Shown: positions 42,051 to 46,413 of the stretch, in pieces
Layout: each line of letters starts with the position of its first letter
How positions within the stretch are numbered: position 1 is the stretch's first letter
Assembly (NCBI GenBank): GCA_015069095.1
Contig: SVJH01000014.1
Location: forward strand, 1 to 57,869
From: Oscillospiraceae bacterium
GTDB lineage: Bacteria; Bacillota; Clostridia; UMGS1810
Reading direction: 5' to 3'
Length of the DNA: 57,869 nucleotides
Translations under genes and position numbers: made by a program
Notes under the pieces: model-generated
The model's database searches: none
Told to the model about the DNA's origin: nothing
The model's input: only the letters and a program-made list of their open reading frames with translations

Positions 42051-43178
42051 TTATCTTCTTTCTTTTTTGTTTTTCATACCTTTAAACATAGCCCAAACAG
42101 GACCTGCAATAAAGATTGAAGAATAAGTACCGCAAACGATACCGATTATAATTGGAAGAGCAAACTCTTTAACAGATTTAACACCAAGAATATAAACCAT
42201 TACTATTGTAATAAGTGTCGTTATACTTGTGTTGATTGCTCTTGTTAATGTTTGAGAAATACTTTTGTTTGTAACATCATCAAAACTTGCACTTTTTTCA
42301 AGTTTAGCATTTTCTCTGATTCTGTCGAAAATAACGATTGTTGCGTTGATAGAATAACCTAAAATTGTAAGCATCGCAGCAACAAAAGATGTATTTATCG
42401 GAAGACGGAAAATTAGGTATACACTCATCATAACAAGAAGGTCATGGATAAGTGCAACTACTGCTGATACACCTGATAAAAATTCAAATCTTATTGTGAT
42501 GTATAAAAGCATAAGCACTGCAGCAATAATAAGTGCTTTTGAAGCGTTGCCCCAAAGTTCAGAACCTACTGTTGCACTAACTTTATCTTCTGATATGATT
42601 TTAATCTGACCGTATTCATTCGCTAATACTTTTTTAACTTCTGCTATAGAAGCATCATCTGTCTGTCTGAATTTAACAATAAATCCTGTGTCTGTTTTAA
42701 CAACATTTGCTTTATCTATTGTTTTTACATTTTTAGCAACAAGTGCTGCAACTGCATCTTCGTTACATACGAATGAATCTTTTACTTTTGTTATATCTTC
42801 GCCTGTAATAATTTCAGATTTATTAAATCCAACTGTTGCAGTCTGTTCTTCATTAGGTGCTGCTTCCTGTGTTTGAGCCTGTGCATTTTCAGCACTTTCT
42901 GTTGTTTGAGCGTTTTCTGTATTTTCTGCATTTTCAACAGGTGCTTCTGCTTCAGCGTTTTGGGAAGGTGCTTCAGGTGTTACCTCTTGTTGAGGTTCTA
43001 CAGCATCTACTTTTTGCATTGTTTTAGTTGTTGCAACTTCTACTGTCATTGTGTAACCGCCAGTAAAGTCAATATCTGCATTAAATCCACCAAAAATAGC
43101 ATATGCGATAATTCCGGCAAGAATAATGGCAATTGATATTATAAAAGATATATTTCTTTTTTGTACATAATTAAACAT
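42051..43178 (-). CDS. secF: Protein translocase subunit SecF with low-complexity insertion
   Basis: SecF is the partner of SecD in proton-driven late protein export. The 375-residue protein has an N-terminal helix, the FNADIDFTGGYTMTVEV motif and the C-terminal RND-type helices (TTLITIVMVYILGVKSVKEFALPIIIGIVCGTYSSIF). Between the first helix and the P4-like domain, about residues 52-120 form a Gln/Glu/Ala-rich, Pro-containing disordered stretch (EPQQEVTPEAP ... AENAQAQTQEAA) absent from ordinary SecF. TAAGGAGG precedes the ATG. Confidence 0.95.
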   Translation of the reverse strand: MFNYVQKRNISFIISIAIILAGIIAYAIFGGFNADIDFTGGYTMTVEVATTKTMQKVDAVEPQQEVTPEAPSQNAEAEAPVENAENTENAQTTESAENAQAQTQEAAPNEEQTATVGFNKSEIITGEDITKVKDSFVCNEDAVAALVAKNVKTIDKANVVKTDTGFIVKFRQTDDASIAEVKKVLANEYGQIKIISEDKVSATVGSELWGNASKALIIAAVLMLLYITIRFEFLSGVSAVVALIHDLLVMMSVYLIFRLPINTSFVAAMLTILGYSINATIVIFDRIRENAKLEKSASFDDVTNKSISQTLTRAINTSITTLITIVMVYILGVKSVKEFALPIIIGIVCGTYSSIFIAGPVWAMFKGMKNKKERR

Positions 43179-43192
43179 TTCTTTGCCCCTCC

Positions 43193-44488
43193 TTACGCAC
43201 TGTATAATTTTGGATTTTTGCTTGCAAATCCAATTACTTGTTTTAATAAGAATTTAGTGATAACAATTGCAGTAAACATACTTACTACTGTACCGATAAA
43301 TAATGTAACTGCAAAACCTTTAATGCTACCTGTTCCAAAGAAATAAAGAACTACTGCAGCAATAAGTGTTGTTATGTTAGCATCAATGATAGATGTAAAT
43401 GCTCTTTTAAAGCCTGAGTCAACCGATGCGCGAAGTGTTTTACCAAGTCTTAATTCATCTTTGATTCTTTCAAAGATAATAACGTTGGCGTCAACTGCTG
43501 TACCGATTGTAAGTATAATACCTGCGATACCAGGAAGTGTAAGTGTTATTGAGAAAATTCCAAGAATACTTGCAACGATTGTAACATAAGCAACAAGTGC
43601 AACAGATGCTACAACACCGCATAGTCTGTATAGTGCAATCATAAAGATTATAACTAAAATCAAACCGATAAGACCTGCAAGTAAGCTTTTAGAAAGTGCT
43701 TCTTCACCAAGCTGAGCACCGATTGTTCTGCTTTCTACAACTTTTAAAGCAAATGGAAGGTTACCCGATTTAATCTGGCTTGCAAGATTGTTTGCATCTT
43801 CCGCTTCAAAGTTACCTGTAATCTGACAGTCTGTGCTGTCGATTTTTTCTGTTACAGACGGTCTTGAAATTTCTTCTCCGTCAAGATAAATCGCGATGTA
43901 GTTATCGCCGTTTGTATATGTTCTTATTCTGTCTGTTGCTTCTGCGAATTTAGTTTTGCCTTCGCCTGTAAGTTTTAAAGCAACATAGTAGCCCTGCGCA
44001 CCTGCATCGTTCATCTGTCCGTATACTGACTGTGCATCTGCTACATCTTTACCTTCAATAACAATATTACCGTCTTTGTCTTTGAACTCAAGTTTTGCTG
44101 TTGAGCCTAAAAGATCAACTGCAGACTGAGTATCCATAACAGCAGGGATTTCTACTCTAACTCGTCTGTCGCCCTGAGTTGTTGCAACTGCATCATAGTA
44201 CCCTTGTGAATCAAGACGTGTTCTTATAACAGCCTGAGCACTTTTAAGTTCTGCTTCTGAAACATTTTTCTGTGTATCTGCTTCAAACAGAATCATAGCA
44301 CCGCCGGCTAAATCCATACCTTTTTTAATACCTGTTTCTTCGTCCATTACATTTGTAATTTCATATCTGCCGATTGTCAAACCGCAAGTAGCAATATATG
44401 CACAAATGCAAATAATCAAAAATGCAATACTAAATCTTATAATGCTTTTTGATTTTGAATTCTTTGATTTAAAATTACTTGAACTCAT
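43193..44488 (-). CDS. secD: Protein translocase subunit SecD
   Basis: SecD is the membrane subunit assisting SecYEG. The 431-residue protein has an N-terminal helix, GLDLAGG-like GMDLAGGAMILFEAD, an extracellular P1 domain (TRLDSQGYYDA ... QIKSGNLPFALKVVESRTIGAQLG) and six RND helices with VDANVIIFERIKDE. The ATG at 44488 has AAAGGAGG 7 nt upstream; the open frame runs 24 nt further. It lies 14 bp upstream of secF. A separate lipoprotein copy of its P1 region lies at 44608-45375. Confidence 0.96.
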   Translation of the reverse strand: MSSSNFKSKNSKSKSIIRFSIAFLIICICAYIATCGLTIGRYEITNVMDEETGIKKGMDLAGGAMILFEADTQKNVSEAELKSAQAVIRTRLDSQGYYDAVATTQGDRRVRVEIPAVMDTQSAVDLLGSTAKLEFKDKDGNIVIEGKDVADAQSVYGQMNDAGAQGYYVALKLTGEGKTKFAEATDRIRTYTNGDNYIAIYLDGEEISRPSVTEKIDSTDCQITGNFEAEDANNLASQIKSGNLPFALKVVESRTIGAQLGEEALSKSLLAGLIGLILVIIFMIALYRLCGVVASVALVAYVTIVASILGIFSITLTLPGIAGIILTIGTAVDANVIIFERIKDELRLGKTLRASVDSGFKRAFTSIIDANITTLIAAVVLYFFGTGSIKGFAVTLFIGTVVSMFTAIVITKFLLKQVIGFASKNPKLYSA

Positions 44489-44521: not shown

Positions 44522-44550
44522 ATTATACCTTGAAAACTCATTTTAGTCAA
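44522..44550 (-). promoter_or_regulatory. Promoter of secDF
   Basis: Minus-strand TTGACT (44545-44550), a 17-bp spacer and TATAAT (44522-44527) lie about 34 bp upstream of the secD start. Confidence 0.82.
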
Positions 44551-44607: not shown

Positions 44608-45375
44608 TTACTTAACTTCAATTACTTTCAAATCAAAAGGAAGTGCACCCGATTTAATCTGTGCTGAAAGATTTCTTGCACTGATATAATCAAAACCACC
44701 TGTTATATGGCACTGTGAACTATCAATTCTCTCTAAAACACTCGGTACAGAAACCACCTGTCCGTCAATACAAATAGAAATGTAGTTTTCGCCATTTTCA
44801 TACTGACTGATTTTTTCAGTTGCATCTGCAAATTTCTTTCTACCTTCATCGGTTAATGTTAAAGAAATATAATAACTTGCATCGTTATACTCTGACAAGT
44901 GATCAAGTTGCGGCAGAGCATCACATACATCATTTGAATCGATAATAACATTGTCGTCTTTATCTTTAAATTCAACATTTGCCTTTGTAATTAAAATATC
45001 TATTATCGATTGTGTAACAATATCTTTTGGTACAGTTACTTCTATCTGTTTATTATTAAGCGTAACTTTAGCATCGTAATATCCCATAAAATCAAGGCGT
45101 GTTCTCATAAGCGACTGCACACTTTCAAGTTCCTTGTCTGTAACACTTTCTTGTGTGTCCGCTTCAAATACAACAATGTTTACATCTTCATCTTTTTCCG
45201 CTTGTTTTTCAGCATTTTTTTCTTTCTTTTCGGACGATTTTTCAACTTGTTTTTCTTCTTTTTCATAAGTTTCATAGTCGTCATCATTATTACATGCAGA
45301 AAAGCAAAAACAAATACAAATGCTTAAAATAAGTGTAAAAATTTTAACAAGATAATTAGTTTTTTTAATATTCAT
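44608..45375 (-). CDS. Lipoprotein homologous to the SecD periplasmic (P1) domain
   Basis: This 255-residue protein has a lipoprotein signal peptide (lipobox FSAC, Cys at residue 28), an acidic/basic linker (EKKEKNAEKQAEKDEDV), and a domain plainly homologous to SecD's extracellular P1 domain: FEADTQESV, TRLDFMGYYDA, NVEFKDKDDNVI, TDEGRKKFADATEKI, ENYISICIDGQ and LSAQIKSGALPFDLKVIEV. It stops just where SecD would enter its second transmembrane helix. The ATG at 45375 has AAGGAG 6 nt upstream. It lies 17 bp after an AEC transporter gene. The function is unknown; a role at the Sec exit site is an inference. Confidence 0.85.
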   Translation of the reverse strand: MNIKKTNYLVKIFTLILSICICFCFSACNNDDDYETYEKEEKQVEKSSEKKEKNAEKQAEKDEDVNIVVFEADTQESVTDKELESVQSLMRTRLDFMGYYDAKVTLNNKQIEVTVPKDIVTQSIIDILITKANVEFKDKDDNVIIDSNDVCDALPQLDHLSEYNDASYYISLTLTDEGRKKFADATEKISQYENGENYISICIDGQVVSVPSVLERIDSSQCHITGGFDYISARNLSAQIKSGALPFDLKVIEVK

Positions 45376-45392: not shown

Positions 45393-46331
45393 TCATATAA
45401 ATGCAAATTGCTTAAGTACAAATACAAATAAAAATACAGTTACGATAGAACATATTGAGCCAAAAACTATGTAGTGTGATGCAAGTGTTTCATCGCCTCC
45501 CATTTGTTGCGACATAACATAGGAAGATACTGCAACAGGCGATGCATAAAGTGCAACAAGCGATGCAAGTTCAACGTTCCTAAAACCTAATAAAATCGCG
45601 CATGTAAGAAATATCAAAGGACTTATTATAAGTTTGCCGGATACACCTATTATAATTTGTTTTATGTACCCTTTTATTGATGAAAAAGTAAATGTTCCGC
45701 CAAGAAGTGTTAAAGAAAGCGGTGTTGCTACTTTTGAAATATCTGTCATTGTTTTTTCAATTAAAGATGGCAGACGCCACCCAAACGCAAGAAAAACAAG
45801 TGCAATTGCCGATGATATAATAAGCGGATTTTTTATAATCCCTTTAAGTATCTTTTTAAAACTTACCTGATTACCTGAATAAATTTCAAGTATTACAACT
45901 GCAAGCGCATTAAATACAGGTGTAACAAAAGCAATTAAAACTGCCGTAACTCCAACATTTTCTGCTCCGTAAAGCGATATAACAACAGGAAGTCCGAATA
46001 TAACAAAGTTACTTCTGAAAATCCCCTGAATCATAACGCTTATTTTTTTGTGGTCTTTTTCGATTTTCGGAATAACAATCATCAAAACTGCAAACATAAT
46101 AACAATACTTGATATTGCAAAAACTATAAGTTTTGTATTTACCGCAGTTGATACATCTGCATTGTAAACATTTAAGAAAAGCAGTATCGGCAAAAACATT
46201 TTAAAAATTGCGCCGTTCATTTTTCTTATAGAGGGTGCATCTATTACTTTTGCACATTTAAGTATATATCCAAGTGCCAAATAAACCATTATAGGGAAAA
46301 TAACACTGAAGGACAAATAAAGATTTATCAT
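45393..46331 (-). CDS. AEC (auxin efflux carrier)-family transporter
   Basis: This 312-residue membrane protein has the expected two sets of about five helices (LSFSVIFPIMVYLALGYIL ... VYNADVS; NFVIFGLPVVISLYGAENVG). Members move organic acids, malonate or amino acids; substrate here is unknown. The ATG at 46331 is chosen as the start of the conserved transmembrane region with GAGAGG about 10 nt upstream; the frame extends 69 nt further. It is followed closely by the SecD-P1 lipoprotein. Confidence 0.87.
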   Translation of the reverse strand: MINLYLSFSVIFPIMVYLALGYILKCAKVIDAPSIRKMNGAIFKMFLPILLFLNVYNADVSTAVNTKLIVFAISSIVIMFAVLMIVIPKIEKDHKKISVMIQGIFRSNFVIFGLPVVISLYGAENVGVTAVLIAFVTPVFNALAVVILEIYSGNQVSFKKILKGIIKNPLIISSAIALVFLAFGWRLPSLIEKTMTDISKVATPLSLTLLGGTFTFSSIKGYIKQIIIGVSGKLIISPLIFLTCAILLGFRNVELASLVALYASPVAVSSYVMSQQMGGDETLASHYIVFGSICSIVTVFLFVFVLKQFAFI

Positions 46332-46388
46332 AAATTCATATCCTCTCAAAAAATATAAGGATATAATACCACATTTTTCAAAAAAAGT

Positions 46389-46413
46389 AAAGCGATGCAT
46401 AATGCATCGCTTT
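46389..46413 (-). terminator. Terminator of sigE
   Basis: AAAGCGATGCAT pairs with ATGCATCGCTTT around one or two bases. On the minus strand it is followed by ACTTTTTTTG. The stem begins at the sigE stop codon. Confidence 0.8.

Follow-up and report, generated by a model that had tools for sequence, protein, structure and literature searches.

What does the P1 domain of SecD do when it is encoded apart from the membrane motor? This question is raised by a gene on contig SVJH01000014.1 of an Oscillospiraceae bacterium (assembly GCA_015069095.1; the whole stretch of 57,869 nucleotides that was analysed is referred to as the window), whose product the initial annotation had taken for a lipoprotein consisting of a SecD P1 domain devoid of RND helices. 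On the reverse strand, a permease gene, the P1 gene, secD and secF follow each other in this order (Table 1). The stop codon of the permease-type gene is located 17 bp ahead of the ATG of the P1 gene, a distance so short that the two genes are probably co-transcribed, and the P1 reading frame has a ribosome-binding site (AAGGAGAAGAAA-ATG). The P1 gene indeed adjoins secD, as had been reported: 119 bp separate its stop codon from the secD start codon (position 44488). A genome-wide search found no second copy of the P1 protein elsewhere in the source genome. The SecF protein of the window carries a low-complexity acidic insertion of ~60 residues in its extracytoplasmic domain (about residues 55-115), and an insertion of this type, ~50 residues long, is present within P1 of the SecD protein of genome G007.

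Table 1. Location of the features in the window and of loci in other genomes mentioned in the text.
Feature	Location	Strand	Remarks
Free-standing SecD-P1 gene (predicted lipoprotein)	44608..45375	-	255 aa, ATG ORF; based on ORF with translation and SecD P1 homology
Predicted signal peptide and lipobox	45292..45375	-	residues 1-28, MNIKKTNYLVK-IFTLILSICICFC-FSA-C28; hydrophobic peak 2.37
Charged E/K-rich linker	45184..45291	-	about residues 29-64; in place of the SecD stretch bearing GMDLAGG
P1 base, N-terminal part, relaxed	44977..45183	-	about residues 65-133, from SecD alignment; 5/11 base invariants kept
P1 head, conserved	44632..44976	-	about residues 134-248; PF22599 match at 142-246; 22/26 head invariants kept
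secD	43193..44488	-	431 aa, complete; GMDLAGG motif and RND helices; origin of the duplicated P1
secF	42051..43178	-	375 aa
Promoter-like site TTGACT-17-TATAAT	44522..44550	-	between P1 gene and secD; 11/12, consensus match only
Upstream membrane-protein gene	45393..46400	-	auxin-efflux-carrier type permease, judged by eye
P1-head proteins joined to other modules (G089, G041, G135, G498)	L111:6902-7924, L112:6163-7209, L110:5707-6597, L124:4967-5950	+, +, +, +	
secD of G007	L120:6247-7680	-	
Small ORFs upstream of secD, relatives from the window's family	L116:6748-7188, L134:2122-2484, L120:7735-8100, L136:5160-5519, L137:6745-7110	+, -, -, +, -	47-70 bp from secD
Small ORF upstream of secD, G337	L130:4399-4752	+	117 aa, 53 bp from secD

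The product starts with a positively charged N-terminus and a hydrophobic stretch leading to FSA-C28; an E/K-rich linker follows, and from about residue 65 onward the protein corresponds to a full SecD P1. All blocks that it had been said to share with SecD P1 (FEADTQ, RTRLDFMGYYDA, ENYISICIDGQ and LSAQIKSGALPF) were found. A 240-aa alignment of the protein with the SecD encoded next to it shows 43% identity (BLASTP, E 7e-65), and its identity to the P1 domain of this SecD is 49% over query residues 42-229. It matches the Pfam family SecDF_P1_head (PF22599) with an E-value of 8.7e-17 and 61.5 bits, above the gathering cut-off of 27, while its score against the NCBIfam SecD equivalog TIGR01129 (80.2 bits) stays below the curated cut-off of 244.4. 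The lack of RND helices was borne out, as the protein has neither a SecD_SecF_C Pfam match nor a hydrophobic segment beyond the signal peptide; it is also devoid of the GG motif (GxDLxGG) that lies ahead of P1 in SecD. Its C-terminus coincides with the end of P1: residues 169-255 align (phmmer) to residues 145-226 of the 229-residue chain 3AQO, an isolated P1 construct, the last residue of our protein pairing with residue 226. The AlphaFold model, derived from a thin alignment of two sequences (mean pLDDT 71, pTM 0.55), agrees with the predicted kinship to SecD P1; in Foldseek searches it matched nine SecDF chains, 3AQO among them, at E<=0.001 (E 1e-12 to 4e-8), and no structure other than SecDF at this threshold. 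It is thus confirmed that the gene encodes a real exported protein that represents a complete SecD P1, base and head, without the RND motor. With SecD P1 (Pfam SecD_1st and SecDF_P1_head; 3AQO, 3AQP, 5XAP, 5YHF), it shares the domain, the base-plus-head organization and the end point; in contrast to SecD, it lacks not only the RND helices and the GG motif but also the SecF partner domain, and it possesses its own export signal, a near-canonical lipobox and a relaxed base.

The assignment as a lipoprotein needs to be qualified. The signal peptide is of the right kind, with an n-region, an h-region and a Cys residue, but the lipobox (F-S-A-C, with F at -3 and C at -4) is near-canonical rather than textbook. 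Phe at -3 falls outside of the Gram-positive lipobox consensus. However, an obvious lipoprotein of genome G480 carries F-A-G-C, and F at -3 is therefore no disqualifier. We consider it probable that the window protein is lipidated at Cys28.

The combination of a lipoprotein signal with SecD P1 recurs in other genomes of the Clostridia. A PF22599 profile search of 392 genomes of this class, whose figures are lower bounds, yielded matches in at least 303 of them, and at least 13 genomes beyond that of the window had two or more; in G010, one match is a free-standing protein. The second match in G019, a 250-aa frame ending at the contig end, was classed as SecD. A full P1 gene stands immediately ahead of secD in G182 (55 bp apart; lipobox AAAC), G190 (160 bp; lipobox MCGC), G273 (89 bp; hydrophobic N-terminus carrying a VLAC site) and G369 (96 bp; signal peptide that has no Cys), and a decayed P1 remnant occupies the corresponding position upstream of secD in G208. 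Free-standing copies that do not adjoin secD are present in G010, a member of the window's family, and in G152, G259 and G135, so that an association with the translocon does not apply to all copies. A survey of one family, again a lower bound, added a P1 lipoprotein in G450 and head-only P1 lipoproteins away from secD in G478, G480 and G483. The free-standing copies have in common that they possess a signal peptide or membrane anchor and that they lack the GG motif (0/17, versus 31/36 SecDs). The notion of a uniform, secD-adjacent P1 lipoprotein had to be given up, since some copies have no lipobox, some are located away from secD and one is decayed. Judged by eye, P1 heads are also joined to SLH-like repeats (G089, G041), to a copper-amine-oxidase-N-like module (G135), and to a zinc-ribbon and a transmembrane helix (G498).

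IMG/VR scans gave no match to the window P1 protein, and a single-protein search of named genomes returned just a spurious 35-residue match. Matches from a phage collection (H7-H14) and from plasmids were set aside: the three phage matches inspected (H7, H8, H11) were ordinary secD-secF, probably bacterial contamination, and the three plasmid matches inspected (H1-H3) were SecD or SecDF. The unannotated faecal "Bacteriophage sp." records MT837209.1, MT835593.1 and MT835472.1 are probably bacterial contigs because they carry ordinary secD and secF. In open-licence papers, our literature searches turned up no account of a P1 protein that stands alone; lone P1-head proteins are probably annotated in databases under the domain name.

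A tree of 45 P1 domains, from SecD and from free-standing proteins, provides leads for the origin of these copies. The free-standing copies form no single group in it, and the topology requires a minimum of eight label changes. The window copy pairs with the SecD of its own genome (support 98/94), those of G190, G273 and G369 are each placed beside their own genome's SecD, the G182 copy falls inside the SecDs of its family, and the G010 copy is next to a SecD of its genus. Since copies adjoining secD cluster with the SecD encoded in the same genome, we conclude that the P1 portion of secD was duplicated locally more than once, with the caveat that gene conversion between tandem copies would give an identical picture. 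As judged from these sequence relationships, the origin of the window gene is clear: it is a shortened copy of the adjacent secD that retained P1 but not the RND channel. A free-standing, probably lipid-anchored P1 protein as initially proposed thus exists, and its architecture recurs, but it does not constitute one conserved type and reflects independent local duplications of secD instead. The G152 copy and the G208 remnant have the common ending LPFGFKIV, and G190, G369 and G208 have an identical upstream gene and slot; these four may therefore represent one origin in one genus. We consequently used a conservative count, according to which detached P1 domains arose in no fewer than five lineages (window, G010, the G190/G369/G208/G152 genus, G273 and G182). 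In G190, the P1 protein shares 92% identity with the corresponding domain of its own SecD over the compared region, and its N-terminus is a new lipoprotein signal with a charged linker.

Such copies might be by-products: the 5'-part of secD would duplicate often, and the copies would drift to loss with little or no function. This would suit their scattered distribution, the G208 remnant upstream of secD and the rapid evolution of the window copy, which changed about four times faster than its own SecD (49 versus 12 assigned changes), a rate that fits loose constraint as well. Nevertheless, we regard decay as an unlikely explanation. The reading frame of the window copy is open, is preceded by a good ribosome-binding site and encodes an export signal, and in a neutral-drift simulation (P1 only, simple model), 0.2% of the P1 reading frames were stop-free at 20% nucleotide divergence. 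Of the 46 positions at which nine further SecDs of the family do not vary, the window copy keeps 34, and identity to its own SecD is found at 34/46 of these positions versus 27/86 (31%) of the variable columns (p 4e-6). Because conserved sites are preferentially kept and the frame is open, the window copy is unlikely to be debris, and the suspicion that it is one of many random degraded secD copies was not substantiated. Pairwise dN and dS values relative to its own SecD are 0.45 and 1.38, where dS is saturating and limits the weight of dN/dS; these values and the drift simulation argue against free drift. The acquisition of a new lipoprotein signal by P1 of G190 also speaks against decay.

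So does a contrast between the two parts of P1 that is repeated in independent copies. Ten of the 12 invariant positions lost from the window copy are situated in the N-terminal base. In eight out of nine free-standing copies, identity is higher in the head than in the base, by 0.08 to 0.48 (the remaining one: -0.01), the window copy showing a mild contrast (+0.08); 484 SecD-SecD pairs diverged to a similar degree tend the other way, with a mean head-minus-base difference of -0.05 (sd 0.09). For all six copies compared with the SecDs of their own families, the difference tops every such comparison. When lineage changes were assigned by outgroup and counted apart for base and head, the window copy had 25/70 changes in the base and 24/109 in the head; the corresponding values are 52/72 and 17/112 for G369, 36/78 and 12/102 for G182, 26/74 and 21/111 for G273, and 4/72 and 0/125 for G190. 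Most probably, then, the window gene has a function, and the several independent origins in which the head is kept best suggest that the P1 arm can be of benefit in the absence of the motor.

The P1 head is critical in translocation (PMC9508474), its amphiphilic cavity has been proposed to bind precursors, and the role of SecDF is perhaps shared by other tethered proteins such as YfgM-PpiD (PMC8082313). With the P1 part of secD duplicated locally and the membrane-embedded RND channel lost, we envisage that the lipidated product would sit at the external side of the membrane, close to the exit of SecYEG-SecDF. There, its head may catch emerging or unfolded exported chains in the absence of proton-driven pulling, so that the protein would serve as a passive holdase or anti-backsliding arm adding capacity to SecDF; the loss of docking on SecF P4 and of coupling to the channel would be consistent with the relaxed base and the missing GG motif. 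We favour this picture of a motor-less, membrane-tethered P1 head from a truncated secD duplicate that passively holds exported chains, with a confidence just short of even. More tentatively still, P1 of Clostridia SecD may repeatedly have been detached to yield tethered P1-head holdases at the export site that function independently of proton-driven pulling; the rarity and scatter of free-standing P1 genes across the Clostridia genomes sampled, the fast change and mild head/base contrast of the window copy, and the G208 remnant count against a holdase.

The initial annotation had left the choice between a holdase and a modulator of SecDF. Of the individual hypotheses, the former, placed close to the translocon exit, still ranks first, whereas modulation by replacement of SecD's own P1 is less likely than independent binding because the base is usually the most diverged part. 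The P1 base ties P1 to the rest of SecDF. A decoy or regulator that rivals SecD P1 for a partner (YajC, YidC, SecYEG or SecF P4) and thereby tunes the motor would make sense of the adjacency to secDF in the window, G182, G190, G273 and G369; yet the relaxed part is precisely the base, where docking to the rest of SecDF is expected, and the GG motif is lost, leaving this a very unlikely reading. Alternatively, the P1 head might have been reused as a general cell-surface binding module whose ligand is not a translocating chain, SecDF being merely its source. The head-only lipoproteins of G478, G480 and G483 and the SLH-like and copper-amine-oxidase-N-like proteins are in line with this idea, but the window gene adjoins secDF, its product is closest to its own SecD P1, and the genomic context hints at no alternative ligand; we therefore deem it rather unlikely.

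Additional copies of SecDF parts within one genome are known from the duplicated whole secDF of Streptomyces coelicolor and Vibrio (SecDF1/2); these retain the membrane motor, whereas the window copy retains only P1. PrsA-type proteins are foldase lipoproteins. These and the translocon-associated YfgM-PpiD pair resemble the favoured holdase by analogy, as chaperone-like domains that are tethered to the external side of the membrane; their folds are unrelated, and the window protein has no isomerase domain.

The position of the P1 gene also recalls the arrest peptides located upstream of secDF in many bacteria, as described in PMC10987492. An export-monitoring substrate of the VemP/ApdA kind, stalling its own translation and thus controlling that of secDF, would likewise be an exported product encoded directly upstream of secD, as are VemP, ApdA/ApdP, uDF_RQH and uDF_DGMK-stop, and sister genera carry small exported ORFs with a common C-terminal motif in this slot. 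Unlike these systems, however, the window protein is a long, folded, SecD-derived domain; it ends in IEVK-stop rather than a RAPP-like, NAP-stop or DGMK-stop sequence, and no known arrest motif was recognised at its C-terminus. Furthermore, secD has a separate promoter-like site (11/12), the intergenic RNA fold is unremarkable (z +0.8), and a complete folded domain is unnecessary for arrest. We give this explanation hardly any credence.

The small ORFs found in relatives from the window's family encode 119-146 aa with a hydrophobic N-terminus and mostly dissimilar sequences. Their C-termini (KVFYLLI, NCFYLII, TTYFLRI, RRYNLLI and KRFRLLI) and the DNA round the stop codon (e.g., CTGATTTGAT) are similar, and they look like candidate arrest peptides controlling secDF; the LLI-type motif is not among the arrest motifs named in the passages of PMC10987492 consulted. 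The ORF of G337 ends in NSRAP-stop, recalling RAPP or NAP-stop arrest peptides.

Whether SecDF actively pulls on the emerging chain or captures it passively is not settled. The free-standing P1 proteins are small soluble proteins that would be suited to chain-binding assays, and natural motor-less P1 domains of several independent origins, in which the head is kept, allow evolution itself to be consulted on what portion of P1 is of use by itself.
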